Virus record (IMG/VR): IMGVR_UViG_3300023174_003468 | Coordinates: 1 to 37,305 of that record | Reading direction: 5' to 3' (one strand) | Source: a virus | Length of the DNA: 37,305 nucleotides | In this document: positions 3,016 through 32,905 of the stretch, in pieces | Layout of the letters: every line of letters starts with the position of its first letter | How positions within the stretch are numbered: the first letter of the stretch is position 1 | Translations under genes and position numbers: made by a program | Notes under the pieces: generated by a model | Seen by the model: only the letters and a program-made list of their open reading frames with translations | The model's database searches: none | What the model was told of the DNA's origin: nothing

Positions 3016-3981
3016 ATGAAACAAGTTGTTATTATGCCCGGTGGCTTTCACCCTTTTCACACAGGACACGCTGCCTTGTATCAATCAGCAAAGGCAGCAT
3101 TTCCTGGTGCTGATGTGTATGTGGCTGCTACCAACGACACCAGCGAACGACCTTTCCCTTTTGCACTAAAAGAAAAATTAGCACAGTTGGCCGGAATCCC
3201 TGCAGGCAAGTTTGTACAGGTCAAATCACCATTTGGTGCAGAAGAAATAACCAGCAAGTACGATCCAGAAACCACACAGTTGATTTTTATCAAGAGTGAT
3301 AAAAACAGTCAGGTTGGGCCCAGCCCCGAAGGCCCTTTTCCAGCAGAACCTGATCCTGCTACAGGTCAGTTGCCCTTGGTCACTAGAGGTCCTAGAAAAG
3401 GCCTACCAGTCAGCAATCGATTACAGTACTACAAAAAAGATCAGCCTATGGCACCCATGAGTCAACACTCATATCTTGCTTATTTGCCCACAGTGGAATT
3501 TGGCCCTGGCATGACATCAGGGTCCGAAATACGAGCCGCATGGCCCACATTAAATGAAAAACGTAAAACTGCCCTGATAATGAGCTTGTATCCCAAGGCA
3601 CAAAGCAATCCCAAGTTGGCTGCTAATGTTGTCAAAATGTTGGACAACGCCATGGGTACAGAAGTTGAAGAAGACATCAGTCGTAGAGGATTTTTACGTG
3701 GTGCAGGTGCTGCTGCTGGCATGGCAGCAGCTGGCGCTGTGGGTGCAAAAGAACTTGCGCGGCCCACAATCATAGCCATTGTGCGAATTGGCAACCAAAC
3801 AAAACAATTCAATCTTGGTACCAAATTTGATACTTCAAAACAAGCAGAAGATTTTGTTGCTGATTTTCTAGACCGACAAGGTATACAACACTACACCATT
3901 GAAATACAACGCGGCTATACCAACGAAAATCAAGGTTGGGCAGCCACTTATGAAGACTATGTGGAAGAACGTCGGTCGTAA
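3016..3981 (+). CDS. HxGH nucleotidyltransferase with a buried Tat-like segment
   Basis: Residues 1 to about 190 are a cytidylyltransferase-like adenylyl/nucleotidyltransferase (NMNAT, PanC and CoaD superfamily). VIMPGGFHPFHTGH carries the nucleotide-binding HxGH (H15, H18), and TSGSEIRAAW near residue 170 matches the C-terminal SxTxIR signature. Residues 217-221 read V-E-E-D-I and lead into S222-R-R-G-F-L-R followed by a Gly/Ala-rich hydrophobic run ending AVGAKE. This is a textbook twin-arginine signal, but placed internally. The last 75 residues (IIAIVRIGNQTKQF onward) form a small unrecognised domain. A V-E-E|D cut would expose the Tat-like signal at a new N-terminus. A near-identical element occurs in the 1183-aa protein downstream. 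The transferase assignment is solid; its substrate is not known. Confidence 0.8.
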   Translation: MKQVVIMPGGFHPFHTGHAALYQSAKAAFPGADVYVAATNDTSERPFPFALKEKLAQLAGIPAGKFVQVKSPFGAEEITSKYDPETTQLIFIKSDKNSQVGPSPEGPFPAEPDPATGQLPLVTRGPRKGLPVSNRLQYYKKDQPMAPMSQHSYLAYLPTVEFGPGMTSGSEIRAAWPTLNEKRKTALIMSLYPKAQSNPKLAANVVKMLDNAMGTEVEEDISRRGFLRGAGAAAGMAAAGAVGAKELARPTIIAIVRIGNQTKQFNLGTKFDTSKQAEDFVADFLDRQGIQHYTIEIQRGYTNENQGWAATYEDYVEERRS

Positions 3982-4982: not shown

Positions 4983-7900
4983 ATGAACATTCATGAGTTG
5001 GACTCTTACAATCTTGGTGACGCAGTACGATTTCACCGCCGTCTCAATCCCAGAATCTGGGGGCGAGACGAGCACTTGCTTCCTGAAGTGCGTGAACGAC
5101 TACTGGCCATTGCTGCAGACTTTCAAGAATTCTTGGGCGTTGAAGATCTCAACGTCGAAGACATCACCATATCAGGCTCCAACGCAGCCTACTCCTATAC
5201 AAAAAACTCAGACATTGACCTGCATCTAGTGGTCACCATGCCTGACAATCCTGTGTATCAGGAATTGTTCAACGCAAAGAAATATCAGTACAACGACGAG
5301 CACAACATACGGATTGGTGGTGCTGATGTGGAATTGTATGTGCAGCCTGCAGACCAAGCCCATCACAGTCAGGGTATCTATTCCGTTCGAGACTCAGAAT
5401 GGCGTCAGATACCACAACGCAAACGTGCGCAAGTAGATGATGCCTGTGTGCGTGACAAAGTTGCTGACTTGGATGCTAGAATACACGCCGCAATCAAAAG
5501 TCGAAATTTAGAATCCATCAGCACACTGTGGGACAAGATTAAGGCCATGCGCAAAAGCGGTCTTGAACAGCACGGTGAATTTGGTTGTGAAAACATTGCA
5601 TTTAAAATGTTGCGCAACAAAGGTTGTATTGGTGCGTTAAAAGATGCAATGATGGCTCAAAAAGATCGTGAACTCAGTTTGCGTGAAGCACCTGCCCAGC
5701 CATTTCGTTATGGCTATGGTACAGAAGTTGATGAAGCCAGCCTAGCAGACATGAGAGCAGCGTTTGCTACAGATACCAAGCCACAGAAACAAGAAGTATT
5801 TCGCAGTCCTTATGAATATGAAAAAGTAAAAAAGCAACGCGAAGCCGAGCGCGAAGAAAAGATCAAACAAATAGCACGAACTCCTGTGAAGCCTTGGCCC
5901 AGTGGAGTAGCAGAAGGACATCAAGGTCAGCCCTACAGTTCGGAAGATGGGGTCGCTGCCAGTACCAAAATGTTCTGTGAAGATAATGATGACACCTTGG
6001 TACATGATTTTATTCAACACACTGCCACGGAACTGGGTATAGACCCCATGCCTGAGATTCACTTACACACTGATCCTGAATGGAGCACCAGCAACCACAG
6101 TTTTGGTCGTTATGATCCTGACACACATACACTCAATGTCAGCATGCCCAATCGACACATACTAGATGTGTTGCGCACTGTGGCACATGAATTGGTGCAT
6201 TGCAGCCAGCATCAACAACATCATGACATGCCCCCTGACGCAGGTGAGACTGGTAGTCGCTGGGAAAACGATGCCAATGCCCGAGCTGGCATCATCATGC
6301 GTGACTGGGCCAACACACATCCTGAACATTTTGAATTGCCGCCCTTGGAAGAAAATGCATCAGGATACATTCCTAAAAATCGCAAAGAAGCCAAGCTGCC
6401 ACAGTACGCCATGGCCTTGAGTGTGGACATCAAGCCAGGCGAAGTAGGCAGACAAGCCAACAAGCTAGCCTTGCACACAGGACGCAATGGTGAGCCTGGC
6501 TTGTTGATGAAAACTGTGAATCTGCGTGAATCCAATCAACTCACTCTCAAGGACTTTGTGGTTGCAGTAAGTCCACATGCGCTGGAACAGTGCTACAATC
6601 GTGGTATAGATGCTGACCAAGTAGATGATATTTTGCGAAATATCAGCAGTGCAAAAAACAGTATCATGGGACAACCAGCAGGCGCCGCATTTATTTTACA
6701 CAACGGCCAAGGCACAGCCCTAGGCATGAGAAAACTGAAAGGCAAACAATTGACCTTGGCCACTGTGTATCGAACTGGTAGAGATTTTGTCAAGGGCAAA
6801 TATCCAACTTTTCAGATTGCTTCCGGCACAAAAGATGTAGATGAAGATATTTCAAGACGCAACTTTGTTCGTGGCTTGGGTGCAGCGGCTGGCATGGCTG
6901 CCACAGGCGCAGGTGCCAAACAATTACGAGACTATGAACCCAAGCAAGTGGCCAACATCACTCAAATAGTTGATGCTCCAGATGCATTTGCGCCAGACAC
7001 ACAACAACTATTGCATGACAAGTATGTGTACAACAGACTGACCAAAGACGCTTTCCTGCAGATGCGAGCTGATCCTGATTTTGCTTCCATGGTTGAATAT
7101 GAGCAAGTGTTTAGTCAACCCATGAACAGCAAAGTGACTCTCATGTTCAACAACAAAAATGACAAGGGTTACTGGGTTACTCCTGCTGTGTTTGACGCTA
7201 TCAGCAAAGAAATGGCAGCTGATCAACTGCTGGCACGAAACAAACGTCCTGGCGGTGTGCCCATGGCAAAAGATCCCATGGCCACAGACAAGTTGCCCAA
7301 CACCATGCGTCAAAGTGCTCCGCCCACGCCAGGTGCCGAACAAGATCGAGTGTATCGCGGCATTGGTGCCAACCGTGCCACAGAATCCGTGCAGGAGAGT
7401 GCTGACGATTATCATATACGCAACACAGAAAAATTAGATCAAGTATTGGCACGTTGTTGTGCCATGATTGAACGGGGACAACGCCAAAATCCCGATCGGT
7501 ACGGTATGGTGGCAGCCTGTGTGATTGATCCTGAAAATCGTCATGTGTATGGTATAAACCTGCCTGGGCCCGATGGCACACGCAGACATGCTGAACGTGT
7601 GGCCATAGACAAATATCGCAAGCAACACGGTGATGTTCCCCCAGGCAGTATTGTGGTCACAACATGCAGTCCTTGCAACGCACCCATGGATGAACGTGCA
7701 GGCGAGAGTTGTAAAGATCTGTTGAACTCAGCAGGCATACACAAAGTATATTGTGGATACATTGATCCCACACAGCACGATGATGAAGATGCTGACTTTG
7801 CTGTGGGCCTCACACAAAACGACGAGCTGTGGGAAGCCTGCAAAGCATTTGCTGACACATTCCTGCATGAGGATGAACTAGAAGAAGGATGGCGCAATGC

Positions 7901-8534
7901 TTTGGCAGGGGCAGCAGCCGCAGCCACCATGGCATTCACACCAGCACCAGCCAACTCAACAGCCGCACCCACTATAGATCCCTCGGCACAACCAGCGGCT
8001 GTACAACAAACACCCGGCGCTGCCGCTGAAAGTGCATTGAGCAGAGCCGCACAGGCAGCAGGTATCAAAGGCGTGGAACTGGCACAGTTCTTGGCACAGT
8101 GTGCGCATGAAACTGGAGACTTTGCGCACCTTGAAGAACTGGGTGGCAACCGGTATCTTGCCAAGTATGATCCCAGTGTGAACCCTGCCAAAGCAAAGGC
8201 CCTAGGCAATACCGAAGCCGGAGATGGCGCCCGGTACAAAGGCCGTGGATTCATACAAATCACTGGCAAGGCCAACTATGCTAATGCTGGTCAAGCCTTG
8301 GGCATAGACCTTGTGAACAATCCTGAATTGGCAGCCAAGCCTGATGTGGCTGCTAAGATTGCTGTGTGGTACTGGCAGAACCGTGTGGCTCCCTATGTGC
8401 AAGACTTTTCAGACACACGTGGTGTGACCAAACGCATCAACCCTGGATTACAAGGCCTACAAGATCGTGTGGACAACTTCAAAGACTATCAACAACAAGT
8501 GGCCTCAGTGGCACAACCCAAGGCGGTAGCATGA
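4983..8534 (+). CDS. Giant multidomain polyprotein: nucleotidyltransferase, zincin, DUF4258-like, Tat-like, deaminase, GH19
   Basis: 1183 residues. Domains in order: (a) about 30-230, a pol-beta-type nucleotidyltransferase with GSNAAYSYTKNSDIDLHL (G-S and D-x-D). (b) V309-A-E|G312, a protease-site-like linker. (c) About 330-450, a zinc metallopeptidase H402-E-L-V-H406 with E428 as likely third ligand. (d) About 525-600, 'SPHALEQCYNRGI...VDDIL', like DUF4258/BrnT-type RNase toxins. (e) V619-D-E|D622, then S624-R-R-N-F-V-R and a Gly/Ala hydrophobic run (Tat-like). (f) About 800-950, a cytidine-deaminase-like domain, H869-A-E871 with P897-C898 and C910, spaced as in RibD. (g) L966-E-E|G969, then a signal-like GWRNALAGAAAAATMAF. 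(h) 1015-1183, GH19 chitinase/lysozyme with H1042-E1043-T and YKGRGFIQITGKANY. I infer that it is a packaged precursor cut by a prohead-type protease, yielding separate injected or lytic enzymes. Domain calls are stronger than that inference. Confidence 0.8.
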   Translation: MNIHELDSYNLGDAVRFHRRLNPRIWGRDEHLLPEVRERLLAIAADFQEFLGVEDLNVEDITISGSNAAYSYTKNSDIDLHLVVTMPDNPVYQELFNAKKYQYNDEHNIRIGGADVELYVQPADQAHHSQGIYSVRDSEWRQIPQRKRAQVDDACVRDKVADLDARIHAAIKSRNLESISTLWDKIKAMRKSGLEQHGEFGCENIAFKMLRNKGCIGALKDAMMAQKDRELSLREAPAQPFRYGYGTEVDEASLADMRAAFATDTKPQKQEVFRSPYEYEKVKKQREAEREEKIKQIARTPVKPWPSGVAEGHQGQPYSSEDGVAASTKMFCEDNDDTLVHDFIQHTATELGIDPMPEIHLHTDPEWSTSNHSFGRYDPDTHTLNVSMPNRHILDVLRTVAHELVHCSQHQQHHDMPPDAGETGSRWENDANARAGIIMRDWANTHPEHFELPPLEENASGYIPKNRKEAKLPQYAMALSVDIKPGEVGRQANKLALHTGRNGEPGLLMKTVNLRESNQLTLKDFVVAVSPHALEQCYNRGIDADQVDDILRNISSAKNSIMGQPAGAAFILHNGQGTALGMRKLKGKQLTLATVYRTGRDFVKGKYPTFQIASGTKDVDEDISRRNFVRGLGAAAGMAATGAGAKQLRDYEPKQVANITQIVDAPDAFAPDTQQLLHDKYVYNRLTKDAFLQMRADPDFASMVEYEQVFSQPMNSKVTLMFNNKNDKGYWVTPAVFDAISKEMAADQLLARNKRPGGVPMAKDPMATDKLPNTMRQSAPPTPGAEQDRVYRGIGANRATESVQESADDYHIRNTEKLDQVLARCCAMIERGQRQNPDRYGMVAACVIDPENRHVYGINLPGPDGTRRHAERVAIDKYRKQHGDVPPGSIVVTTCSPCNAPMDERAGESCKDLLNSAGIHKVYCGYIDPTQHDDEDADFAVGLTQNDELWEACKAFADTFLHEDELEEGWRNALAGAAAAATMAFTPAPANSTAAPTIDPSAQPAAVQQTPGAAAESALSRAAQAAGIKGVELAQFLAQCAHETGDFAHLEELGGNRYLAKYDPSVNPAKAKALGNTEAGDGARYKGRGFIQITGKANYANAGQALGIDLVNNPELAAKPDVAAKIAVWYWQNRVAPYVQDFSDTRGVTKRINPGLQGLQDRVDNFKDYQQQVASVAQPKAVA

Positions 8535-9391
8535 GAGCACAAGAATTCATCCGCCCCCAACTGCGTGAAGACATTGAGAATTTTCCCATTGCCAATGTGC
8601 GCAGACCCAACGGTGCCATTGGCACACAAGGTGTGAACACTGAACAAGCAGCAGATGTGTTGACTCATGCTGCCGGCATGCAAGTGTCTCCAGATATGAG
8701 CATGCGACAATTAGTGGATGCATTAAAAGCAGATCCTGCGGCACAACAACGCCTTCGACAATTTGTAGCACAAAACCCTGTCACAGTGTATGCACTTCCA
8801 GATGGATCATATCATTTGCAAGACGGCCATCACAGAACATTTTTACTGAACTTGCTGGGTGACGAAACAGTGCCTGCCATAGTAAAAGAAGATGCCACAG
8901 AAGCCAAAACTGTGGAGTTTGAGGGGTTGACGTTGAAAGTAATCAAACAAGGACATGAGTTAGTAGTTGATGCACTGGATGACTGGGGCAACAAAGTGCT
9001 GGGTCATGTACGATTCAACATAGGCGACAACAAAGAATTGGACCCACAAGATCTCTCTGTGGATGAGAAATATCAAGGCCAAGGTATTGCCCGTGTCATG
9101 TATGATTATATCAAAAGCCAGGGCTATACTATTGTTAGAAGTTGGGACCAAACTGATGCAGGCGCAGGCTTTTGGAACAAACACCGCGGGGAAGATGTGC
9201 GTGTTTGGGAAAACTTTGCCGATGGCAAGAATCCTGGACGCAAAGGACTCAGCAAGCGCATGGGTGTTAACACCAAAGCGTCAGTGAGTAGTCTACGCAA
9301 CACAGCCAAGAATTCATCAGGTGAGAAGCAACGCATGGCCCACTGGCTGGCCAACATGAAAGCTGGTAGAGCAAAGGCGAAAAGAAAATGA
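8531..9391 (+). CDS. ParB-like / GNAT acetyltransferase fusion with capsid-targeting-like leader
   Basis: The 286-residue protein starts MRAQEFIRPQ at 8531, overlapping the previous stop as ATGA. An upstream extension in the same frame exists but would overlap the GH19 gene heavily, and the MRAQEF start recurs in other genes here. Residues about 55-115 hold a ParB/sulfiredoxin-type domain (VYALPDGSYHLQDGHHRTFL; D98-G-H-H-R102), which in some relatives binds CTP or ATP or acts as a nuclease. Residues 130-245 are a GNAT N-acetyltransferase with the acetyl-CoA loop YQGQGIARVM (181-190). The tail is strongly basic (KAGRAKAKRK). It is likely made with the flanking cargo genes. What it acetylates is unknown; a host protein modified early in infection is one option. 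Confidence 0.75.
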   Translation: MRAQEFIRPQLREDIENFPIANVRRPNGAIGTQGVNTEQAADVLTHAAGMQVSPDMSMRQLVDALKADPAAQQRLRQFVAQNPVTVYALPDGSYHLQDGHHRTFLLNLLGDETVPAIVKEDATEAKTVEFEGLTLKVIKQGHELVVDALDDWGNKVLGHVRFNIGDNKELDPQDLSVDEKYQGQGIARVMYDYIKSQGYTIVRSWDQTDAGAGFWNKHRGEDVRVWENFADGKNPGRKGLSKRMGVNTKASVSSLRNTAKNSSGEKQRMAHWLANMKAGRAKAKRK

Positions 9392-9924
9392 GACTGCTGG
9401 AGTTCACTCCACTGACGCTGTCGGGCAGTTTCCACCGTGGTTTGATATTCAACAAGTTATGGATGATTCAAGAACTAACCAAAATACAAGATCACTACAG
9501 CACAATATACATCTTGGGTTCATGGTATGGCAATATGAGCATGTTGTTGGCCAAGAGTGGTATCAAATTTGATCACATCATCAACGTAGACCAAGATGTC
9601 ACGGTGGTGCGTCAAGGACAACATATAGCAAAACGCATGGGCATTGCAGATAGAATTGAGCCCATGATTGCAGACGCCAACCACTTGGATTATCGTCAGC
9701 TGGACAGTGATGGATTGGTGATAAACAGCAGTTGCCATGACATGGACGATCAAGGTTGGTTTGATCACATACCCAGCGGTGCTATAGTGGCACTGCAAAC
9801 TCGTGAAGATGTGGATTGCAACCTGGGGGATTATGCCTTGCAACAAACACTGTATCAAGGCACTCGACGATTGCGAGACCCTGAAACTGAGTATGTGAGC
9901 AAAATGAAGATTGGCGTTAAATAA
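9388..9924 (+). CDS. Class I SAM-dependent methyltransferase-like protein
   Basis: A 178-residue protein starting by ATGA overlap. It has a Rossmann-type core: TIYILGSWYGNMSMLLA (motif I position), a following acidic strand end HIINVDQD, RIEPMIADANHLDY (motif II/III) and LVINSSCHDM (motif IV position). This matches small class I methyltransferases, although the glycine motif (G-S-W-Y-G-N) is not the classic GxGxG. The leader MRLLEFTPL resembles the packaging-type leaders of its neighbours. No target-recognition domain is visible, so the substrate (DNA, RNA, protein or small molecule) cannot be given. A degenerate non-catalytic Rossmann protein is also possible. Confidence 0.65.
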   Translation: MRLLEFTPLTLSGSFHRGLIFNKLWMIQELTKIQDHYSTIYILGSWYGNMSMLLAKSGIKFDHIINVDQDVTVVRQGQHIAKRMGIADRIEPMIADANHLDYRQLDSDGLVINSSCHDMDDQGWFDHIPSGAIVALQTREDVDCNLGDYALQQTLYQGTRRLRDPETEYVSKMKIGVK

Positions 9925-9942
9925 AACTATCTGGAACATATT

Positions 9943-11106
9943 ATGAAGATACGACAAATTGTAGAAGCCGCTGAACGTGGCAAAACACTGGGAGGATTCC
10001 CTGTCAAAGTATTGCATGTGGAACATGGTGCCACTGATGAAGCACTCAAGCTGGATGCACCACAGCAGTCTTGGAACAACCAAGACATGCAAGACTACTT
10101 GAGTCGTGTGAAAACCGGTACCAAGACCAAGGCTGACAAGTTCAAGCCCATCATACACGGCAGCAATGTCAAAGCCATTACCAAAGATGACGGTGGTACA
10201 GAATGGGACCTGGATGATTTGAAAAATCAGATCATGCAGCCGCCAAGACAGATCTTGGGTACCAATGCCAAAATGGCCAAGAGCAAGCAAGAAGGCGCCA
10301 TCACATATGACTTGACATTGCCTGCACTGAGTGGCATTGTGGTGGATGAGGACACTGGCGAGTTTGTGGAAGTCATTACTTGTCCCGGCGCTGGCGAATG
10401 TCAAACCTACTGCTATGCTAGAAAAGGCGGATATGTTATGTTCCCTGCCAGCTCAATGAGTGCGGCACAAGCACTAAACTTCTTGGTAAATCATCCCAGT
10501 GACTACATGGAGAAGTTTGATGGCGAAGTTAAAAAAGCCGCTGCACTGGCCTCAAAGAATGGCATCAAGTTGTTGGTGCGCATACACGATGCTGGTGACT
10601 TCTTTTCAAAAGAATACTACAATCTCATGATGGATGTGGCCAAGAACAATCCTGATGTTAAGTTCTACTTCTACACCAAGATGGGACAAATAGTAACAGA
10701 CCCTGACACACCTGACAATGTGGTCAAACAATTCTCACCAGGTGCCAAGAGCCGTGAAGTCAAAACAGTTCAACTGCAACGTGATGCTGGCAAACATGTC
10801 AAAGATGCTGTGACATTGCCCAAGGACATGTTCCGTGATTTGTTTGTGACTGATGCCAAGGGCAAGTATGTCAAAGACGAAAAGGGCCGTACACAAGTTC
10901 GCAGTCCCCAAGCCTGGCAGCAGTTCCGTCAAGAGCTGGGTGCAAAATACAACATTGACCCCAACACTGTGATCACATACGACGAAATGAACCGCATACC
11001 CGAAGGTCCTGCACCCAAATGGAACGTTGTAGTATTCCCTGCAGGGCACGGAGACCTAGGTGCCAGCAGACTGGACGTGGCAAATCAATTCCTGATGTTC
11101 CACTAA
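9943..11106 (+). CDS. GP88-like protein with a Cys cluster
   Basis: A 387-residue protein beginning MKIRQIVE|AAERG, a leader that fits a T4-type (I/L)-x-E|A maturation site. The core matches the phage 'Gp88' family as I recall it: ITCPGAGECQTYCYARKGGY with C-x5-C-x3-C spacing, then VRIHDAGDFFSKEYYNLMMD and FYFYTKMG. The clustered cysteines at the head of an apparent alpha/beta barrel, with later strands ending in D/H, suggest iron-sulfur or metal binding, perhaps a radical-SAM-like variant. That mechanistic reading is inference. A GTTAAATA element lies 19 bases upstream. It sits among packaged-type genes, so it may be injected. Confidence 0.65.
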   Translation: MKIRQIVEAAERGKTLGGFPVKVLHVEHGATDEALKLDAPQQSWNNQDMQDYLSRVKTGTKTKADKFKPIIHGSNVKAITKDDGGTEWDLDDLKNQIMQPPRQILGTNAKMAKSKQEGAITYDLTLPALSGIVVDEDTGEFVEVITCPGAGECQTYCYARKGGYVMFPASSMSAAQALNFLVNHPSDYMEKFDGEVKKAAALASKNGIKLLVRIHDAGDFFSKEYYNLMMDVAKNNPDVKFYFYTKMGQIVTDPDTPDNVVKQFSPGAKSREVKTVQLQRDAGKHVKDAVTLPKDMFRDLFVTDAKGKYVKDEKGRTQVRSPQAWQQFRQELGAKYNIDPNTVITYDEMNRIPEGPAPKWNVVVFPAGHGDLGASRLDVANQFLMFH

Positions 11107-11109
11107 ATA
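11102..11109 (+). promoter_or_regulatory. ACTAAATA late-promoter-like element
   Basis: ACTAAATA overlaps the previous stop codon and ends 7 bases before the ATG at 11117 (TACAATC between). No Shine-Dalgarno sequence is present. It repeats the TAAATA arrangement seen before other genes in the island. Confidence 0.4.
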
Positions 11110-11116
11110 TACAATC

Positions 11117-11470
11117 ATGACTTACAGAGAAATTCTTGAAGCCTGCTGGACTGGCTATCGCCAAGCAGGCATAAAAAACAAAGGTGGTCGTCAGGTGCCC
11201 AACTGTGTGCCTGTGCGCGAAGCCGAGTTGGAAGAAAATCTTCATGACTGGTTTAAAGAAAAATGGGTGCGTTTTGGTCCTGACGGCCGTATCCGCGGCG
11301 ACTGTGCTAGAGGCAGCTCAAAAGAAGGCAAGCCCAAGTGTTTGCCCCAGGCCAAGGCACATGCCTTGGGCAAGAAGGGTCGTGCTAGTGCAGCCGCAAG
11401 AAAGCGCAGACAAGATCCCAACCCCAATCGACATGGAGCGGCCATCAACGTGGCCACTAAAAAGAAATGA
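11117..11470 (+). CDS. Small basic conserved phage protein with packaging-type leader
   Basis: This 117-residue, strongly basic protein starts MTYREILE|ACWTGYRQAG, an I-L-E|A leader typical of this island. The 'CWTGYRQAGIKNKGG' and 'VPNCVP' block and the middle part (DWFKEKWVRFGPDGRI, then CARGSSKEGKPKCLP and KAHALGKKGRASAA) are modules I recognise as recurring in marine T4-like phage proteins, but with no established function. Four cysteines in C-x-P and C-A-R / C-L-P contexts could bind metal. The Lys/Arg-rich tail (ARKRRQDPNPNRHG) suggests nucleic-acid contact inside the capsid. The next gene starts by ATGA overlap. Confidence 0.65.
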   Translation: MTYREILEACWTGYRQAGIKNKGGRQVPNCVPVREAELEENLHDWFKEKWVRFGPDGRIRGDCARGSSKEGKPKCLPQAKAHALGKKGRASAAARKRRQDPNPNRHGAAINVATKKK

Positions 11471-13116
11471 TCATAAGTGAACTTTTTGAAACCCCACAAC
11501 AGTGCCCCGAATGCGGTGGCATCAGTTTCAGCAATCTAATTTTAGCTGAAAAGAAAGACGCCTGCTACTACAAAGTCAAGGCTAGTGCCAAGGTATGGCC
11601 GTCGGCCTATGCATCTGGACGCCTGGTTCAGTGCCGCAAAAAAGGCGCTGGCAACTATGGCAACAAGTCGGAAGGTGTGGCGGAAGGCTCCTTGAATGAA
11701 TTTGCAATACCTAGTGGTAACGATGGTGATTCAGGACGTTGGTATAACGATGATGAGCTTGCTGATATCATTGGTGATGATTGGTTTGAAGACTTTGATG
11801 TCAGCAACGATGGATTTAATATTGATGCCTACGGCGAAAAAGCCAAGAAGAATTTAGTGGGCTATGCAAATACATGGTTTGATGACAAAGGTTATGATGT
11901 TCACGTAATGGGTGTAGAACACAATGATGTTGATCATGATTTACAATGGTACATTGTTGGTAGTTTCCATAATCCTCGCTTTGCCAATGAAAGCGTGGCG
12001 GAAGAACAAGAGTTGGACGAAAAGTGGAGCAAAAAATACAAGAGTTCTATCAACTGTGCCAACCCCCGGGGTTTCTCACAAAAGGCTCACTGTGCTGGTC
12101 GCAACAAGAATGAAGATGTAGCAGAAAATGCTGTACCGCAACTGAGTGTTCAACAGTTGGCCGCCATCAGTGACGAAGCATTGGATCAAGCCTATGGTTA
12201 TGGACGTAGTACACCCAGCAACACCTTTGGTTGGCAAGCCAATTTGAAGTCAGCTGCCTATGCCAAACAAATGATTGATCAGGGTGTGACAGATATTGAA
12301 GCCATCAGTGATGCCATTCACAAGGGATGGAATACTACTGCTCAAGCATTTGTGCAAGATCCTGAACAATTTGATGACACTGCAAAATTGGCAGCAGCCG
12401 GCAAACTAGAAGCCAAACTTCAACAACGAGCACAGTTGATGAAACAAAATTATGCTCAACTGCCTGAAGAAGAAAAAGAAAAAGACCGTGTGGTTGCCCG
12501 TGCATTGTTGCAGGCCATTCGTGGTGAACAACAGCAAGGTGTGGCGGAAGATCAATTGGATGAAAAGTCTGTGAGCCAAGCACAGTTCCGTACCATGGCC
12601 GGGGCGGCACACAATCCTGAATTTGCTAGAAAAGTTGGCATCAGTCAAGATGTTGCTCAAGAGTTCAATCAGGCAGATAAAAAAAGCAACTACAAAAAAT
12701 TGCCAGCCCGTGCTAACGAGGGCGGTGTAGGATCAGGACGTCCTGACCCAACAGTGTGGGACACTTCACCAGGCAAAGTGGGTCGTGTAGAAAAAACTGC
12801 CACTGGCTTGCGTCATTACGCTGATCCCAGTCGTTATGGTGGCACCATACCTGAACCAGAACATGATAAATTGTTGACTCCACAAGAACGTTGGAGAATG
12901 GACAAAATAACTCAACCCATTGATGACATGGACGAAGGCGAGCAACAACCGGGTGCTGACTATCGTGATCCCAAAGAAGTCGACTACGATGACGAATACG
13001 ATGCCATGGTGGCCAGAGTTAAAAAGTTGGCTGGACTGGGTCCTATGAAAACTGTGTACGATCCTGCCAAGCGACAATATCGCAACATGCCCACAGCAGT
13101 GCAACCTAAAAAATGA
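11467..13116 (+). CDS. Mosaic cargo protein of five modules joined by VAE / LDE linkers
   Basis: 549 residues with no single recognised enzyme. Modules in order: leader MIISELFE|T and a Cys module (QCPECGG, then CYYKVKASAKVWPSAYASG); linker GVAE|GSLNE; an acidic alpha/beta module with WYNDDELADIIGDDWFEDF; linker SVAEEQELDE|K; a short Cys module KYKSSINCANPRGFSQKAHC; linker DVAE|N; a helical module (LSVQQLAAISDEALDQAYGYG) running to a Glu/Lys coiled-coil-like stretch; linker GVAEDQLDE|K; and a module with AQFRTMAGAAHNPEFARKVG. Then comes a low-complexity Gly/Asp-rich tail. The linkers fit prohead-protease cleavage (hydrophobic-x-E). Three of them share the exact DNA 10-mer GTGGCGGAAG. I infer a precursor cut into small capsid-internal peptides; the module functions are unknown. 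Confidence 0.7.
   Translation: MIISELFETPQQCPECGGISFSNLILAEKKDACYYKVKASAKVWPSAYASGRLVQCRKKGAGNYGNKSEGVAEGSLNEFAIPSGNDGDSGRWYNDDELADIIGDDWFEDFDVSNDGFNIDAYGEKAKKNLVGYANTWFDDKGYDVHVMGVEHNDVDHDLQWYIVGSFHNPRFANESVAEEQELDEKWSKKYKSSINCANPRGFSQKAHCAGRNKNEDVAENAVPQLSVQQLAAISDEALDQAYGYGRSTPSNTFGWQANLKSAAYAKQMIDQGVTDIEAISDAIHKGWNTTAQAFVQDPEQFDDTAKLAAAGKLEAKLQQRAQLMKQNYAQLPEEEKEKDRVVARALLQAIRGEQQQGVAEDQLDEKSVSQAQFRTMAGAAHNPEFARKVGISQDVAQEFNQADKKSNYKKLPARANEGGVGSGRPDPTVWDTSPGKVGRVEKTATGLRHYADPSRYGGTIPEPEHDKLLTPQERWRMDKITQPIDDMDEGEQQPGADYRDPKEVDYDDEYDAMVARVKKLAGLGPMKTVYDPAKRQYRNMPTAVQPKK
11677..11686 (+). repeat. GTGGCGGAAG linker repeat (copy 1 of 5)
   Basis: An exact 10-base repeat encoding V-A-E at a module boundary. 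Other exact copies are at 11995-12004, 12541-12550, 13593-13602 and 15816-15825, all in the same reading frame relation and all at linkers. Two variants with GTAGCAGAA occur near 5907 and 12119, and one with GTGGCAGAA near 13973. Confidence 0.75.
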
Positions 13117-14144
13117 GAGCACAAGAGTTTGTCGCCGAAGCTTTTGACAACCCTTACAAGGGCAAATGGGAAAAGAGTGATTACGGTGACGTTGATCTAA
13201 ACACAAAATTACCCGACGGCACATATCTCAACATCATGTTCAATCAAGAATATGACGGAGAAGGTGACGAAGTCACGCATGTTGAGTTCCATAGAAACAA
13301 CAGCCAAGAAGTCACAGGTGAAGGTGATGCACAACGAATCTTTGCCACGGTGTTAAACGCTATACAAAAATACATCAAAAAATACAAACCTTCAAAATTG
13401 AGTTTTTCAGCTAGTAAAGCAACTGATCCAACAATATATTATGAGCCTGACCAGCCTCAACCAAATCCTGAGAGTCGTGCCAAGTTGTATGACAGACTGG
13501 TACAGCGTTATGCTCGGGCCTGGGGATATCAAGCCTTCCGTGCTGACAATGGTGATTTAGTTATATATGAATTGAGTAGATTAAAGCAAGATGTGGCGGA
13601 AGGCGAAAGCAATGATACTGCCATAAGTTTATCCAAGTTGGGTAAATTTCATCCTGGCGCAGATACACTGGCAGAATTTGTTCCTGAACGAGCCTCTGCA
13701 CGATATGCCTTGCACCCTGATAAATGGGAATCAACCTTCTACAGTTTGACCAACAAAGATTCAGACAAATTAAAATACTACGGGCCAAAAAAGATTTCAA
13801 TTCCTCCAGGAACTCTAGTGGGCGACATGGCCATTGCCAACAAGTTCTATAGAGCAAAAACACCTGAAGAACAAGAACAATATGCTGAATTATATAAAGC
13901 ATCACTAAAGCCATATCCTGTTGATGTCAGCGAGTATCGTATGCCTGAATTGTTGATTCCCAAGCACGGCGTGGCAGAACAACAACTGGACGAACTCAGT
14001 TTCCTGGGAAGTGAATGCACCAAAGACTGTTCCGGACACCGTGCTGGATATGAGTGGTCCAAACGCAAAGGCCTACGACAAGCCAACAGCCCGTACAGTC
14101 CCAGTTTCAACAAAGGCGCTGCCCTGGCAGTGGCCGGCAAATAA
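13113..14144 (+). CDS. Mosaic cargo protein with MRAQEFVAE|A leader
   Basis: 343 residues. The leader MRAQEFVAE|AFDNP is the best match here to T4 internal-protein capsid-targeting sequences, which end in a (hydrophobic)-x-E|A cut site. Module 1 (about 12-150) is a conserved-looking alpha/beta domain (GTYLNIMFNQEYDGEGDEVTHVEFHRN; landmarks LNIMFNQ and HVEFHRN) ending in YARAWGYQAFRADNG. Linker DVAE|GES (nt 13593 repeat) leads to module 2 (about 165-285), an uncharacterised segment. Linker GVAEQQLDE|L leads to a short C-terminal Cys module (SECTKDCSGHRAGYEWSKRKG) that also occurs, by memory, at the ends of other marine phage proteins. No catalytic motif is evident. It is likely packaged and processed. 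Confidence 0.7.
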   Translation: MRAQEFVAEAFDNPYKGKWEKSDYGDVDLNTKLPDGTYLNIMFNQEYDGEGDEVTHVEFHRNNSQEVTGEGDAQRIFATVLNAIQKYIKKYKPSKLSFSASKATDPTIYYEPDQPQPNPESRAKLYDRLVQRYARAWGYQAFRADNGDLVIYELSRLKQDVAEGESNDTAISLSKLGKFHPGADTLAEFVPERASARYALHPDKWESTFYSLTNKDSDKLKYYGPKKISIPPGTLVGDMAIANKFYRAKTPEEQEQYAELYKASLKPYPVDVSEYRMPELLIPKHGVAEQQLDELSFLGSECTKDCSGHRAGYEWSKRKGLRQANSPYSPSFNKGAALAVAGK

Positions 14145-14170
14145 CGTCAAAAATTCTCCACGTAGATTTC

Positions 14171-14178
14171 GCTAAATA
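14171..14178 (+). promoter_or_regulatory. GCTAAATA late-promoter-like element
   Basis: GCTAAATA lies in the 39-base gap after the previous gene and ends 5 bases before the ATG at 14184. Unlike some other copies it is independent of any stop codon, which makes it one of the better examples of the TAAATA series. Confidence 0.45.
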
Positions 14179-14183
14179 TCTCT

Positions 14184-14489
14184 ATGCAAACTTATTTTGT
14201 TCGTGTGGAATGTGATGTCACTGCCAAGGCACATGAGCAGCCTTTTCGCTACAGAGCCTATGTCAATGATGAACTGTTCACAGAGCGCACCTGGACGTGG
14301 GAAAATTGCTACCTGAAAGAAAATTTTCAAATAGCTGCACCTGCTGGTGTTTATCCCATACGATTTGAAACTGTGGATGACGCCAATGGTCGGATCAAAG
14401 TACGCGACTACAGAGTTGTTGCAGGTCCTGGAAGAATAATAGAATATCAAGGTCAAACAGCCGTGGAGATCGCAAATGAGAGCCCATGA
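14184..14489 (+). CDS. Small beta-rich phage protein, likely virion component
   Basis: This 101-residue protein has a clear beta-sandwich pattern: YFVRVECDVTAKA, FRYRAYVNDELFTERTW, LKENFQIAAPAGVYPIRF and VRDYRVVAGPGRIIEY. I recall similar short proteins in marine T4-like phages that are annotated only as hypothetical. There is no leader of the M-R-A-Q-E type, so it may be a structural or decoration protein rather than processed cargo. Its end overlaps the next ATG by 14 bases. Confidence 0.65.
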   Translation: MQTYFVRVECDVTAKAHEQPFRYRAYVNDELFTERTWTWENCYLKENFQIAAPAGVYPIRFETVDDANGRIKVRDYRVVAGPGRIIEYQGQTAVEIANESP

Positions 14490-14694
14490 AATTACGGAAT
14501 CAGCATCAGTAGGCGCCACAGTGTCAGGTGGTATTGCCCCTGTAGAGTCAGCATTAGGCATGCTGTCAAGATCTGGCGGTTCCTTGCTGGCAGGTAAATA
14601 TGTAACTGGATCAGATCCTACGCCTAACACGCCCAAGGAATACAAAAGGAATAAACATGCTCGCGGACAGTTTAAAAACTCTATTAGCAACTGA
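14476..14694 (+). CDS. Short protein with MRAHEITE|S leader, possible internal virion peptide
   Basis: A 72-residue protein whose N-terminus, MRAHEITE|SASVG, is a variant of the leader on the neighbouring cargo genes (I-T-E|S fits a T4-type cut). The DNA at the start (ATGAGAGCCCATGA) is close to that at 8531 and 13113. The rest is Gly/Ser rich (GATVSGGIAPVESALGML) with a basic tail (KEYKRNKHARGQFKN). It overlaps the previous gene by 14 bases and the next by 38. After a cut at residue 8 a 64-residue basic peptide would remain, similar in size to small T4 internal peptides. No enzymatic motif. Confidence 0.6.
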   Translation: MRAHEITESASVGATVSGGIAPVESALGMLSRSGGSLLAGKYVTGSDPTPNTPKEYKRNKHARGQFKNSISN

Positions 14695-15100
14695 ATATGC
14701 TTTCAGCATCAAAGCTCAGTTGTTTCACTGGAATGTGGAGGGCCCTGACTTTGCACAACTGCACGAGTTCTTTGGCAACTTGTATGAAGAAGTTTACAAC
14801 GGTTCAATAGATCAAACCGCAGAATACATTCGTGCCATGGGCGACTATGCACCAGGCAGCTTTGAACGTTTCTCAGAACTCAGCATTATCCAAGGACAAA
14901 CAAAGATTCCACGAGCTAGACTCATGATTGAAGAACTGTTGGCCAACAATGGTCAGCTGTTGGAACTACTCAACAAGAATTTTGCCACGGCCGAACAAGA
15001 AAATCAACAAGGCATTGCCAACTTCATTGCAGAACGCATCGATGCTCATCAGAAACATGCATGGATGCTGAGAAGTTTCTTGAAAGACAATAGAGCATGA
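14657..15100 (+). CDS. Dps-like ferritin
   Basis: This 147-residue protein belongs to the Dps/ferritin family, which oxidises Fe(II) with peroxide, stores iron and in many bacteria shields DNA from oxidative damage. The inter-subunit ferroxidase residues are all present with family spacing: H24 in LFHWNVEGPDF, H36 in QLHEFFG, then D52 and E56 in IDQTAEYIRAMG. The length is near the usual Dps size (about 150-170), with a short N-terminus lacking the Lys-rich DNA-binding tail of E. coli Dps. AGGA precedes the start at 14657; the start lies inside the upstream ORF and no better one exists. It sits among packaged-type genes without a cleavable leader, so whether it is a virion protein or works in the infected cell is open. 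Confidence 0.85.
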   Translation: MLADSLKTLLATEYAFSIKAQLFHWNVEGPDFAQLHEFFGNLYEEVYNGSIDQTAEYIRAMGDYAPGSFERFSELSIIQGQTKIPRARLMIEELLANNGQLLELLNKNFATAEQENQQGIANFIAERIDAHQKHAWMLRSFLKDNRA

Positions 15101-15777
15101 GCAACGACATCAGATCAATCCTGGACCGACTGGCCACAGTGGAGGGCCGATTGACACCTGCACAACAAAAAGTGCCTCAGTTGCCTGCCTTGTTCAAGCC
15201 TCGCCACATTCGTGCGTTAGGCTCAAAAACAGATCCTGCTCATCCCATGGATGGCTACATGGTTGGTGACTCCGTAGAGCCCACACGAACTGCACTTGAA
15301 GAAGCCATGGCCGAGATCGAAGAAGACATGATCAGCAAGGTCAAGAAAGACCTAACACAATATTTGGATCGCTTGGAAAAGAAGGTGCGTGTTGACCGTG
15401 ACTTGAAAGACAAAGCACAGGACGCTGTGGCACGTGGTGATGTCGAAGAAGAAATTGACACCGATCCTGCTGCCATGCAAGGACCTAGTGACCCAGGCGA
15501 CACTGAAGTGGCACACGCCGCTGAACTAGATGTGGCTGACCGATTAAACGCACCACAGGCTCCACAAGCGCCTTCAGCCACATTTGAAATGGCTGACGGT
15601 GTGGCATTGGAATGCTGGGGTGATGACAATTCGGGTTACGAACTACGGCATGGCGAAAAGCGACTGCCCAGTCGCTTCCGGAGCCTGGATGATGCTGGTA
15701 TAGCCGTGAAACTTTATCAAGCTCGTCGCCAGGCACAGCAACGCAACTCAGATGCGGATTACATAGAAGAACGATAA
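15097..15777 (+). CDS. Unrecognised acidic, partly coiled-coil phage protein
   Basis: 226 residues starting by ATGA overlap. The N-terminal part (IRSILDRLATVEGRLTPAQQ, then VPQLPALFKPRHI) is a module I recall from other marine phage proteins without a function. Residues about 65-125 are a charged helical stretch (EAMAEIEEDMISKVKKDLTQ) likely to form a coiled coil. A Pro/Ala/Asp-rich linker follows, then a small C-terminal domain with ALECWGDDNSGYELRHG and SRFRSLDDAGIAVKLYQAR. Its position between Dps and another VAE-linker protein suggests the same virion-cargo set. It could also be a scaffold-like assembly factor; I cannot distinguish. Confidence 0.6.
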   Translation: MSNDIRSILDRLATVEGRLTPAQQKVPQLPALFKPRHIRALGSKTDPAHPMDGYMVGDSVEPTRTALEEAMAEIEEDMISKVKKDLTQYLDRLEKKVRVDRDLKDKAQDAVARGDVEEEIDTDPAAMQGPSDPGDTEVAHAAELDVADRLNAPQAPQAPSATFEMADGVALECWGDDNSGYELRHGEKRLPSRFRSLDDAGIAVKLYQARRQAQQRNSDADYIEER

Positions 15778-15779
15778 TC

Positions 15780-16424
15780 ATGATCACAAGCGATTTATAC
15801 AACAACAAAAAAATTGTGGCGGAAGGTACCGAAGAAGACATGCCAGTACATCGTATTGGCCTTACTGTGATTGACCCACAACATCCCATGGTTTCAAAGC
15901 GTAGAGAAGAATATCAAAAAACTGTGCGTGTTCCTGGACATGACAGAGAACAAGCCATTACTGCCGCAATCAATCATTTGCGCCGTAGAGGCTTCAAAGT
16001 ACTAGACCATCACTACATGGGGTTGTTAGAAGCCAGTTTGGGTGACTATCGTAGAAAAGCACAATTGAGTCGAGCTATGGCTCAAACAAATAAGTTCTTT
16101 GACCGGGATGATCCTGAGGCAGTTGCCCAAGCCGATCAAACCATTGCCAAAAGAGAACGTGGTCTGGCACGTGCTGACGCTAGAGTCAAACCATATACAC
16201 CCCCTGCGCACAATGTTGAAAAAGTACAACGTGACCTGACAGCAAAATATCCCAACATTGATGAACTAGTAGCTCAGGCTGAAAAGCGCCGCGATCCCAA
16301 CTATGACTATGCCGAAGGCAATGCTTACTATCGTGGCCGTGAAGCAGAACAAAACTATCAGCGACTCCGACAAATACAACGTGTGATTCAAGGCTTGAAT
16401 GAATCACTGAACCAATCATATTAA
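15780..16424 (+). CDS. Mosaic cargo-type protein with IVAE|G leader
   Basis: A 214-residue basic protein. The leader MITSDLYNNKKIVAE|GTEED uses the GTGGCGGAAG repeat (nt 15816) to encode the V-A-E cut site. Module 1 (HRIGLTVIDPQHPMVSKRRE) is a small alpha/beta domain of a kind I remember in other marine phage mosaics, ending near FKVLDHHYMGLLEA. Module 2 (LGDYRRKAQLSRAMAQTNKFF, then a long Lys/Arg/Glu helix) is a probable coiled coil, and the tail (YYRGREAEQNYQRLRQIQRV) continues it. It is the last gene of the cargo island before a sigma70-like promoter. No catalytic residues recognised. Confidence 0.65.
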   Translation: MITSDLYNNKKIVAEGTEEDMPVHRIGLTVIDPQHPMVSKRREEYQKTVRVPGHDREQAITAAINHLRRRGFKVLDHHYMGLLEASLGDYRRKAQLSRAMAQTNKFFDRDDPEAVAQADQTIAKRERGLARADARVKPYTPPAHNVEKVQRDLTAKYPNIDELVAQAEKRRDPNYDYAEGNAYYRGREAEQNYQRLRQIQRVIQGLNESLNQSY

Positions 16425-25121: not shown

Positions 25122-26320
25122 GAAAACTGTACTACATGGGCCTTGAAAGTTACGAGGCCCGTTACACTCTACAACTAACTGAATGGAACCGACGTGTGTT
25201 TGATGCACGTGGCCTGGATGTGGTGTATGTGCCAGGCACTACCATCGACAACACACAAAGCATCAGTGTTGGACAGGTACTGGATGCACATGGTCGCAGT
25301 TACTTCGCCATGAGCCAAATGATGAACTTGGTTCAGCTGATGAAGAATGGCGAAGTCACTAGTGAAGATGTCATCTATTTTGAAGACATGTTTCAGCCAG
25401 GCATCGAAAGTTTGCCATATATTATGGACCAAATTCCTGCAGAACAGCGCCCTAGAATCTATGTACGCTGCCTAGCACAGGCCATTGATCCTGATGACTT
25501 TGTGCATGTGTGGGGCATGGCAGGCTGGATGAGCACGTATGAACGCATGGTCAATCAGTTTGTCACAGGCGTGTTGGCCACCAACGAAGAAATGGTAGCA
25601 CACATGCGCATTGCAGGGTGGACTGCTCCAATCTACAACATTTCAGGCTTGGCATTTGGCAAGACGGAAGTGTTAGAACGTATCGGTGGTGCAGACAACA
25701 TTCGACCATTTGAGGATCGTCCACGTCGTGTGGGTTTTGCCGCACGTTGGGATCAAGAAAAGCAACCAGGCTTCTTCATGGACTTGATTGAGATGTACGG
25801 TGAACTTACCACAGAGCCTTGTGAGTTTGTGATCTATTCTGGTGGGCCATTGCGTAGCAACAACGCAGAGTATGTGACTCGTGCCAGAGCAATGGAAGCA
25901 GAAGGCCGGTTAAAAATCTACGACAACATTACAAAAAATGATTACTACGCTCACCTTAATAATACTCGTGTGCTGTTTAATTGCGCCCTTCAAGATTGGG
26001 TTTCAAACACTGTCAGTGAAGCAGACACTCTTGGGTGTAATGTTTTATACCCTGCTTATAGGTCTTTCCCTGAAACTTTTTCTAATGACCCTAACCGGCT
26101 TTACGTCCCTTGGTCAATAGATGATGCCTATCACAAAATGCAGAACTTGTTGCGTGAACCACATCACAACATGGGCTTGATCTCAGACTGGAACAATGGT
26201 ACCATTGACCGTGTGATAGACATTGTGACAGGTGCAGGTGAGCAGTGGAACCGTGCAGGCTCAAGATATCGAGATCATGTGGCCAAAGAAAAGTATCATG
26301 TGGTAAAGGTCGAGTCATGA
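25118..26320 (+). CDS. GT-B fold glycosyltransferase
   Basis: The start is ATG 25118 (MRKLYYMGLESY), overlapping the previous stop; the in-frame ATG 87 bases upstream lies inside the small gene and is unlikely. 400 residues in two lobes: an N-terminal lobe (VVYVPGTTIDNTQSI onward; EDVIYFEDMFQPGIESL) and a C-terminal nucleotide-sugar lobe (RRVGFAARWDQEKQPGFFMD, EFVIYSGG and the donor-site region LQDWVSNTVSEADTLGCNVL with the E-x-x-x-x-G pattern of GT4-like enzymes). The following sugar-epimerase gene overlaps by ATGA, so they are probably co-translated. It could act on modified DNA (as T4 glucosyltransferases do) or on a host or virion glycan. A patch of foreign-looking codons covers about 25940-26110, over the donor site. 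Confidence 0.75.
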   Translation: MRKLYYMGLESYEARYTLQLTEWNRRVFDARGLDVVYVPGTTIDNTQSISVGQVLDAHGRSYFAMSQMMNLVQLMKNGEVTSEDVIYFEDMFQPGIESLPYIMDQIPAEQRPRIYVRCLAQAIDPDDFVHVWGMAGWMSTYERMVNQFVTGVLATNEEMVAHMRIAGWTAPIYNISGLAFGKTEVLERIGGADNIRPFEDRPRRVGFAARWDQEKQPGFFMDLIEMYGELTTEPCEFVIYSGGPLRSNNAEYVTRARAMEAEGRLKIYDNITKNDYYAHLNNTRVLFNCALQDWVSNTVSEADTLGCNVLYPAYRSFPETFSNDPNRLYVPWSIDDAYHKMQNLLREPHHNMGLISDWNNGTIDRVIDIVTGAGEQWNRAGSRYRDHVAKEKYHVVKVES

Positions 26321-27279
26321 AAAAAACTGTGGTCGTAACCGGCGCTGGTGGATACATTGGCGGACAAACTGCCTTGATGTTGGCCGATTCTGGCCATCGT
26401 GTTGTGGGCATCGATAGATTGCCATGCCCTCCTCACTTGAGATCAACATTTGATGATTATGTCGAACAAGACTTTGCCCACAAAGATGCCTTGGTCAAAT
26501 TGTTGGTACATGGGCCCGACGCTGTGATTCATTGTGCTGGCAGCAGCCTGGTTGGACCCAGCATGAACAATCCTGCTGATTACTTTGAAAACAATGTGGT
26601 GAGCACTCTCACACTGTTGGATCAGGTACGCAAAAGCATGCCCCAGACCAGAGTTATTTTTAGTTCAAGCGCCGCAGTGTATGGTGAGCCCATAATGACT
26701 CCCTGCCATGAAGTAGATCCTTGTGAACCCATATCACCGTATGGTGACAGCAAGCTCATGGTGGAGAAGATCATGGCAGCATATCACAAGGCCTACAATT
26801 TGGACTATGTGGCATTTCGTTACTTCAATGCCTGTGGTGCTGACAGTCAAGCCAGACACGGACAAACTAAAGACGCCACACATATCATTGCCCGGGTATT
26901 ACAAGCCATTAGAGATGATTGCGAATTTACGCTGAATGGCGTAGACTTTGCTACTGATGACGGCACTTGTGTGCGTGACTATGTGCATGTGGAAGATATT
27001 GCTCGAGCACATGTCCGGGCATTAGATACCAAAATAAAATCTGGTGTATACAATTTAGGCAACAATCAAGGTGTCAGCAACAGAGAAATTATTGCCGCAG
27101 CCGAACGTGTGACTGGTAAGAAATTGAAAGTTGTACTAGGCCAGGCCAGGCCAGGAGATCCTGCTGTGCTCACAGCCAGTGCTGCCAAATTTGGCCAGCT
27201 TGCTGAAGGTTGGAGACAGTTTGAATTAGATCACATGATTCAACACGCCTGGAACTGGTATGTTCGAAAAGATTCTTGA
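26317..27279 (+). CDS. GalE-like UDP-sugar 4-epimerase
   Basis: The start at 26317 (MKKTVVVTGAGGYIGG) overlaps the previous gene by ATGA; the 24-residue extension upstream is a shadow of that gene. The 320-residue protein carries the short-chain extended fold: NAD-binding GAGGYIGG, SSSAAVYGEP, catalytic YGDSK (Y-x-x-x-K), then AFRYFNACGAD and the GalE-typical DGTCVRDYVHVEDIARAH. It most likely interconverts UDP-glucose and UDP-galactose or the N-acetyl forms. UDP-glucose 4-epimerases average about 338 residues, so it is near full length. Paired with the GT-B gene it points to synthesis of a sugar donor used by the phage. Confidence 0.85.
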   Translation: MKKTVVVTGAGGYIGGQTALMLADSGHRVVGIDRLPCPPHLRSTFDDYVEQDFAHKDALVKLLVHGPDAVIHCAGSSLVGPSMNNPADYFENNVVSTLTLLDQVRKSMPQTRVIFSSSAAVYGEPIMTPCHEVDPCEPISPYGDSKLMVEKIMAAYHKAYNLDYVAFRYFNACGADSQARHGQTKDATHIIARVLQAIRDDCEFTLNGVDFATDDGTCVRDYVHVEDIARAHVRALDTKIKSGVYNLGNNQGVSNREIIAAAERVTGKKLKVVLGQARPGDPAVLTASAAKFGQLAEGWRQFELDHMIQHAWNWYVRKDS

Positions 27280-27850: not shown

Positions 27851-27875
27851 CTGTTAAATCTAAATAGTGTACAAT
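27847..27875 (+). promoter_or_regulatory. sigma70-like promoter for folE
   Basis: TTGACT (27847-27852), a 17-base spacer, TACAAT (27870-27875), then GGAG (27884-27887) and the ATG at 27893. A TCTAAATA string lies within the spacer (27859-27866), so a late signal is also possible. Confidence 0.7.
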
Positions 27876-27892
27876 CACACACTGGAGTAACA

Positions 27893-28588: not shown

Positions 28589-28596
28589 TTTATAAA

Positions 28597-29205: not shown

Positions 29206-29237
29206 TCATCACACAAAATAAATTTTAGGTAACACCA

Positions 29238-29351: not shown

Positions 29352-29363
29352 AGGAGAAAGAGC

Positions 29364-29567: not shown

Positions 29568-29580
29568 TCAGGAGCAACGC

Positions 29581-31428: not shown

Positions 31429-31438
31429 GTATTTCTTT

Positions 31439-31491: not shown

Positions 31492-31509
31492 TAACATAGG
31501 AGAAAAAGC

Positions 31510-32904: not shown

Positions 32905-32905
32905 T

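Follow-up and report, generated by a model that had tools for sequence, protein, structure and literature searches.

We analysed the whole of a 37,305-base virus record (IMG/VR record IMGVR_UViG_3300023174_003468; hereafter the window), which comes from a freshwater T4-like giant phage and carries densely packed genes on the + strand. Its stretch from 3 to 16.5 kb probably encodes head-targeted polyproteins that are diced by the prohead protease and ejected with the DNA, some of the pieces then possibly being exported. The encoded products would be internal head proteins. A leader of 8–15 residues would bind the prohead core and be removed by a gp21-type prohead protease after a hydrophobic-x-Glu sequence (predicted cuts are marked by an arrow below), and the larger open reading frames (ORFs) would be polyproteins in which (Q/E)GVAE↓G or xLDE↓ sites join small exchangeable modules. 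Because the joints carry the same site, the enzyme that cuts off the leader would divide the rest of the chain as well, still within the prohead. The products would be ejected together with the DNA, and the LysM and GH19 wall enzymes plus a small module, each with a Tat- or Sec-type signal right behind a site, could be exported to the periplasm by the newly infected host.

For the window phage we infer cutting at the sites, head packaging and ejection from the sequence; export of the pieces by the host is hypothetical. The leader offers a sequence rule for the injected cargo of T4-like phages, checked here for the first time on one measured virion proteome, and would allow many modular phage proteins now called "hypothetical" to be predicted as head cargo, cut points included. 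A capsid protease that activates hidden export signals, and so sends injected enzymes to the host periplasm, is a testable idea. In the open-access literature searched, we found no account of chains whose exchangeable modules are separated by prohead-protease sites, or of export signals concealed behind sites of this kind, and the string QGVAEG was not found there.

Leaders and measured virion proteins

An initial annotation of the window had proposed a family of short N-terminal leaders resembling the T4 capsid targeting sequence (CTS), with six examples, and had added that MRAQEF also opens the ParB/GNAT gene. All six are present, and five of them (all but the one at 15780) are, by shuffle tests of a fuller consensus, non-random; the ParB/GNAT leader was found as well, matching the loose form only. 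The leaders are as follows.

8531..8569, + strand: leader MRAQEFIRPQLRE↓D of the ParB/GNAT/NFADG ORF 8531-9391; loose form, disordered in the AlphaFold2 model
9943..9966, + strand: leader MKIRQIVE↓A of a GP88-family protein (9943-11106)
11117..11140, + strand: leader MTYREILE↓A, followed by the module ACWTGYRQ..; a homologous module occurs in virion protein gp160 of cyanophage S-CREM2
11467..11490, + strand: leader MIISELFE↓T of the modular ORF 11467-13116; the G006 homolog has MIIDELFE↓A
13113..13139, + strand: leader MRAQEFVAE↓A, the nearest to the T4 CTS MKTYQEFIAE
14476..14499, + strand: leader MRAHEITE↓S of a small basic protein (14476-14694)
15780..15824, + strand: leader MITSDLYNNKKIVAE↓G; loose motif match only

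The strict leader pattern (^M[KR]xx[EQD][FILV]x(1,2)E) matches 3 of 41 window genes, against a mean of 0.046 and a maximum of 2 when residues 2–20 of each gene were shuffled in 5000 runs, and a wider T4-like pattern matches 5 of 41 (shuffled mean 0.14, maximum 2 in 5000); the patterns were partly shaped after inspection of the window. We also collected 80 related viral contigs through the window polymerase, one of which, the 364 kb contig G001, was fully examined. Among 1450 protein clusters from these contigs and further loci, 178 carry the strict pattern, where 1.5 were expected. Of 260 leader proteins, 259 have I, L, V, F or M at P3 and one has Thr; at P1′, A, S, N, T, G or D predominate. 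In the family of the small basic protein at 14476, the P1 Glu and a hydrophobic P3 are invariant in 55 of 55 distinct homologs, while leader length is 8 or 9 residues and leader positions 3 and 4 vary freely.

CTS leaders are known from T-even phages (PMC9026906, PMC3012670, PMC12373910), and in T4, positions 4 and 7 are required for targeting and positions 8 and 10 for processing (PMC9026906). The T4 proteins ipII and ipIII begin MKTYQEFIAE↓A and ipI begins MKTFKEFTSTTTPVSTITE↓A; the core E-F-I/V-x-E↓A/S is common to the present leaders and to ipII and ipIII. The consensus of the 9-residue leaders is MRAxEFI(T/x)E. Window leaders keep the Phe or Ile before the site but are one or two residues shorter than that of T4, and S-CREM2 leaders agree with T4 at positions 4 and 7. 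The related contigs G001 and G002 each encode Peptidase_S77 (gp21, PF03420) and Gp23 (PF07068). The gp23 of G001 matches mature T4 gp23* from residue 40 onward, and a site of the same form, YLKE↓NASSG, lies at about residue 42, near the start of that match, and would be cut there. The proposed resemblance to the T4 CTS is thus borne out by the shared core, the hydrophobic P3, the mostly small P1′ and the presence of gp21 and gp23 in relatives, and the sequences support equivalence on nearly every point that they can address.

The T4 internal proteins IPI-III, which carry a CTS and are cut by gp21 (PMC9026906, PMC3012670), are alike in their short leader ending in hydrophobic-x-E↓small residue, in the E-F-I-A-E core and in being unrelated cargo proteins that share the leader only; T4-like gp21 and gp23 occur in the relatives here. 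The leaders described here differ in being mostly 8–9 residues long with an MRAxEF/MRxxEI consensus. The T4 proteins are single small proteins, whereas the cargo here includes enzymes and multi-module chains with internal sites, some with export signals behind the site.

The most telling evidence for this equivalence is a measured virion proteome, that of the Synechococcus cyanophage S-CREM2, in which mass spectrometry detected 52 of 219 proteins (PMC10665884). All S-CREM2 genes were translated and scanned with a pattern on T4 CTS residues 4, 7, 8 and 10. It matches five genes, where shuffles expect 0.06, and every one of the five products was detected in virions (one-sided Fisher test, 6.5e-4), three of them enzymes.

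S-CREM2 gp6: SAM hydrolase, MKDFDSFLEE, in the virion
S-CREM2 gp13: MKDLHSFLTE, in the virion
S-CREM2 gp14: kinase, MKRFDAFLTE, in the virion
S-CREM2 gp136: MQTFSMFFSE, in the virion
S-CREM2 gp154: cytidylyltransferase, MKNFSSFLTE, in the virion

The kinase of cyanophage S-CRM01, stated in the same paper to be in the virion, starts MISFDQFLSE. The S-CREM2 virion protein gp160 shares a KKDACYxKVKA module with window ORF 11467 (59% over 59 residues) and two modules with ORF 11117, and virion protein gp156 shows 35% identity, across 227 residues, with the module that opens ORF 4983. The similarity of gp154 to window ORF 3016 is family-level only and was not used as proof. In S-CREM2, S-SCSM1 and S-CRM01 (PMC10665884, PMC9602691), homologous modules and enzymes are found in virions, and the S-CREM2 enzymes carry T4-type CTS leaders; in the sections of these two papers used here, the authors make no link between virion enzymes and a targeting leader or protease site. 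The initial annotation had predicted a large set of packaged, injected proteins, many of them enzymes. The S-CREM2 proteome agrees with this as to packaging and enzymes, but "large" is too strong, since each genome has few strict leaders (G001 has 4 among its 363 genes). As a side observation, S-CREM2 gp12 (L379:7704-10313), annotated as Cas9-like and detected in the virion, has a CTS-like LRFASFMAE↓A at residues 17-25.

A T4-late-promoter-like TAAATA lies 11-30 nt upstream of seven window starts (2023, 3016, 4038, 4983, 9943, 11117 and 14184); in 16.5-37 kb, a single start has one. If promoter function carries over from T4, this placement fits late, virion-time expression of the cluster.

Internal sites and the signals behind them

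Internal copies of the site, which divide the large ORFs, and the export signals behind some of them had been missed when the leader family was proposed. Large ORFs contain recurrent (Q/E)GVAE↓G, VAE↓N and LDE↓K sites. The predicted sites, signals and modules of the window are listed below.

3670..3672, + strand: internal site EVEE↓ in the cytidylyltransferase-like ORF 3016-3981
3673..3759, + strand: Tat-like signal DISRRGFLRGAGAAAGMAAAGAVGAKEL directly behind EVEE↓; Pfam TAT_signal 19.1 bits, cut-off 22.7
4983..8534, + strand: ORF 4983, 1183 aa, with nucleotidyltransferase-like, HELVH metallopeptidase-like, Tat-like, deaminase and GH19 wall hydrolase modules
5913..5915, + strand: internal site GVAE↓GH, aa 311 of ORF 4983
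6843..6845, + strand: internal site DVDE↓, aa 621 of ORF 4983
6846..6917, + strand: Tat-like signal DISRRNFVRGLGAAAGMAATGAGA behind DVDE↓; Pfam TAT_signal 20.3 bits, below the cut-off
7884..7886, + strand: internal site ELEE↓, aa 968 of ORF 4983; homology ends at aa 968
7887..7976, + strand: Sec-like signal GWRNALAGAAAAATMAFTPAPANS behind ELEE↓, ahead of the GH19 module
8064..8381, + strand: GH19 (chitinase/endolysin) catalytic module; Pfam 6e-15, PHROG endolysin 2e-44
8888..8890, + strand: internal site IVKE↓DA, aa 120 of ORF 8531, between the ParB-like and GNAT modules
9209..9211, + strand: internal site RVWE↓NFADG, aa 227 of ORF 8531; the module is also found behind leaders
11234..11236, + strand: internal site ELEE↓NLHDWFKEKW; module behind a leader in relatives (MRADEFVTE↓NLRDWFKE)
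11683..11685, + strand: internal site GVAE↓GS, aa 73 of ORF 11467; homology ends cluster at aa 73-75
12019..12021, + strand: internal site ELDE↓KWSKKYK, aa 185 of ORF 11467; module behind a leader in relatives (MKANEFLTE↓KWSQKYKS)
12124..12126, + strand: internal site DVAE↓NA, aa 220 of ORF 11467; homology ends at aa 217-220
12547..12549, + strand: internal site GVAE↓DQLDE, aa 361 of ORF 11467; precedes the SVSQAQFRTMAGAAHNPEF module, which is standalone in phiKZ-like phages
13599..13601, + strand: internal site DVAE↓GE, aa 163 of ORF 13113; homology ends at aa 163-165
13977..13979, + strand: internal site GVAE↓QQ, aa 289 of ORF 13113; homology starts at aa 289-291
16029..16031, + strand: internal site GLLE↓ASLGDYRRKAQ, aa 84 of ORF 15780; in G006 the module stands behind QGVAE

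When all proteins were compared with one another and collapsed to 1639 clusters, 186 of 2326 homology ends coincided exactly with a hydrophobic-x-E Glu, where random positions within those proteins gave 37 (maximum 59 in 500 runs). When the 12 residues behind a leader were sought internally, a hydrophobic-x-E preceded them in 179 of 226 distinct contexts. NFADG.. stands behind the leader MRAQEFVTE↓ and behind internal RVWE↓, KWSQKYK.. behind the leader MKANEFLTE↓ and internal ELDE↓, and NLRDWFK.. behind the leader MRADEFVTE↓ and internal ELEE↓. Because the same modules sit behind either, the leader Glu and the joint Glu are interchangeable. The ACWTGYRQ.. module family of ORF 11117 likewise sits elsewhere behind internal xE sites (DELDE↓ACWKGYHK).

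ORF 8531 illustrates the modular build. Its homology blocks start or stop close to the sites at 120 and 227, and some relatives lack or have replaced the region from aa 120 to about 225 while keeping the first and last modules. An AlphaFold2 model of the protein (mean pLDDT 74, pTM 0.41) has low confidence at residues 1-13, 26-32 and 221-235, and two of the three sites fall within these stretches of the model. For ORF 4983, a search of viral contigs with the middle part as query returned only 2 relatives. The loci L134:3992-4783, L135:3965-4228 and L136:2995-3165 carry the SxSQAxFxxAAAHNPEFAKKxGI module of ORF 11467, either by itself, in phiKZ-like phages, or within a 121Q protein annotated as structural, where KVKE↓AS follows.

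Export-type signals lie behind some of the sites. Simple rules applied to all proteins picked out 36 internal stretches that resemble signals; 23 of these follow a site directly, compared with 0-3 of about 35 when positions were shifted. The modules that bear them are GH19 (Sec-like or Tat), LysM plus GH19 (Sec-like) and a small INLGT.. family (either kind), and Pfam searches with 12 pieces returned TAT_signal in six, GH19 in three and LysM in one. The (S/T)RRxFL motif, which in Tat signals is followed by a hydrophobic stretch near a free N-terminus, is present and becomes N-terminal only if the site is cut; ORF 4983 has the Tat-like arrangement DVDE↓DISRRNFVRGLGAAAGMAATGAGAK. An independent DNA search for xxE↓D(L/I/M)(S/T)RRGFL across the entire viral collection returned 18 loci. 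Twelve are Tat-like signals, most of them directly behind a CTS leader, such as MRFKEILE↓DMSRRGFLKGVAGTAAVAATGNAFAK followed by a LysM-like stretch. The other six were discarded because they belong to an unrelated capsid-like protein that lacks a signal sequence. When the Glu of the pattern was exchanged for Lys or Gln, there was a single, unrelated match.

A signal buried in the chain would sit at the new N-terminus after the cut, and therefore the new host could export the piece to the periplasm. A Tat signal right behind a leader might work uncut; the internal Tat and Sec signals would need the cut. The specific claim that the prohead protease cuts the polyproteins, that buried Tat and Sec signals become active only after this cut, and that wall-active enzymes brought into the cytoplasm along with the DNA are thereby exported to the periplasm is put forward tentatively, as an idea whose chances we rate slightly below even. 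A doubtful alternative is that the Ala/Gly-rich hydrophobic stretches are membrane-active or ejection-helper peptides that act during DNA entry. Their hydrophobic regions are indeed Ala/Gly-rich and mild, and wall-active virion enzymes help entry in other phages. Against this alternative stand the SRRGFL consensus, the A-x-A-like ends and the TAT_signal matches in half of the 12 segments. In addition, homologous modules bear a Tat signal in some cases and a Sec-like one in others, and therefore a shared destination, and not a shared peptide activity, is indicated.

Proposed cut joints, intact chains and known systems

If the chains were intact multidomain effectors, the leader would target them and be cut, and the internal hydrophobic-x-E sequences would be uncut flexible linkers or recombination joints. 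Recombination could spread linker repeats such as QGVAEG, and bare hydrophobic-x-E is about as dense in the cluster as it is elsewhere (6.6 per 1000 aa, versus 5.7 in other genes). We regard this explanation as unlikely. The P1 Glu is conserved above the rest of the linker, with Glu227 the sole column at least 90% conserved in an alignment of 41 ORF 8531 sequences; many differing linkers have only hydrophobic-x-E in common, and GVAE-type sites are concentrated in the cluster (7 versus 1). Export signals right behind sites, moreover, make sense only with a free N-terminus.

It is less probable again that the joints are cut not by gp21 but by ORF 4983 itself, through its HELVH metallopeptidase-like module. 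The HELVH zinc-metallopeptidase-like motif (window 6171-6275) has weak family matches (Tox-MPTase3 E 0.013), and embedded peptidases have been proposed as the releasing agent in polyvalent proteins, such as phage P1 DdrB and its kin (Iyer et al. 2017, PMC5512222). However, the sites also occur in peptidase-free ORFs and short leader proteins, their hydrophobic-x-E↓small specificity is that of T4 gp21, and the modules found behind leaders recur behind internal sites. The polyvalent proteins of phages and conjugative elements (PMC5512222) are nonetheless alike in being multidomain, mosaic and injected, with ParB-like, metallopeptidase, nucleotidyltransferase and lysozyme-type domains. ORFs 4983, 11467 and 8531 share the several distinct domains and mosaic exchange, and would share the injection. 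The difference is that the release of polyvalent proteins is attributed to embedded peptidase domains, whereas the joints here are predicted sites for a trans-acting prohead protease, the same as behind leaders.

Chance and shared ancestry, which would make the leaders no more than the usual amphipathic N-termini within a single gene family, are a highly improbable explanation. The loose motif is indeed common, and it is not enriched in G001. Against this explanation, the leaders open unrelated proteins (GP88, ParB/GNAT, the small basic protein and modular ORFs), and the shuffle tests and the match to the S-CREM2 virion proteome also count against it.

The ejection (E) proteins of SPN3US and other phiKZ-like phages, cut by gp245 at A-x-E (PMC10052503), resemble the proposed diced head cargo in being abundant, processed by the prohead protease and cut several times per propeptide. 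They differ in that mainly N-terminal propeptides are removed, with A-x-E specificity, and neither module-by-module dicing nor export signals are described in the sections of that paper used here.

Several observations weigh against head-targeted, protease-diced polyproteins with exported pieces. Peptidase S77 (gp21) and the capsid gene were not found in the window, because the window is a fragment. The bare motif hydrophobic-x-E↓small is common; near N-termini it is not enriched in G001 (18 versus 13, shuffle maximum 25) and is weakly enriched in the window (8 versus 3.3, p 0.012), so that only the fuller leader consensus is informative, and the bare motif was rejected as leader evidence. One such loose match, at 31027 (MKYETLQE↓A), is probably due to chance. 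The G001 homolog of ORF 11467 lacks a leader (MFSEMLMMEKKDAC), and so do, recognisably, window ORFs 3016 and 4983 and S-CREM2 gp156; because of these three, another route into the head must exist. The counts all come from related phages and are therefore not independent trials. The export signals were called by simple rules and not by a trained predictor, and the window TAT_signal matches, at 18-20 bits, fall under the Pfam cut-off of 22.7. The S-CREM2 table lists peptides per protein and not cut ends, and its authors allow for carry-over in the CsCl purification (PMC10665884).

Surrounding genes

No near DNA matches to the window were found among isolated phages. Pfam and PHROGs searches identified cytidylyltransferase-like, ParB-like/GNAT and GP88 proteins in the cluster, together with the 1183-aa multi-module protein and its GH19 endolysin end, and several modular cluster proteins belong to PHROG families 727, 38880, 3477 and 22033. 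The gene at 9388-9924 has a leader-like start (MRLLEFTPLT) without a protease site, and weak methyltransferase matches. A Ferritin/Dps-like protein without a leader (14657-15100; Pfam Ferritin 1e-22) overlaps the 3′ end of the leader gene at 14476 and may be a DNA-binding head or host-takeover protein. A DNA polymerase-type gene and metabolic genes lie downstream of the cluster, and the translations indicate a run of sugar-nucleotide, glycosyltransferase-like and dehydrogenase-like genes at 26317-37138.

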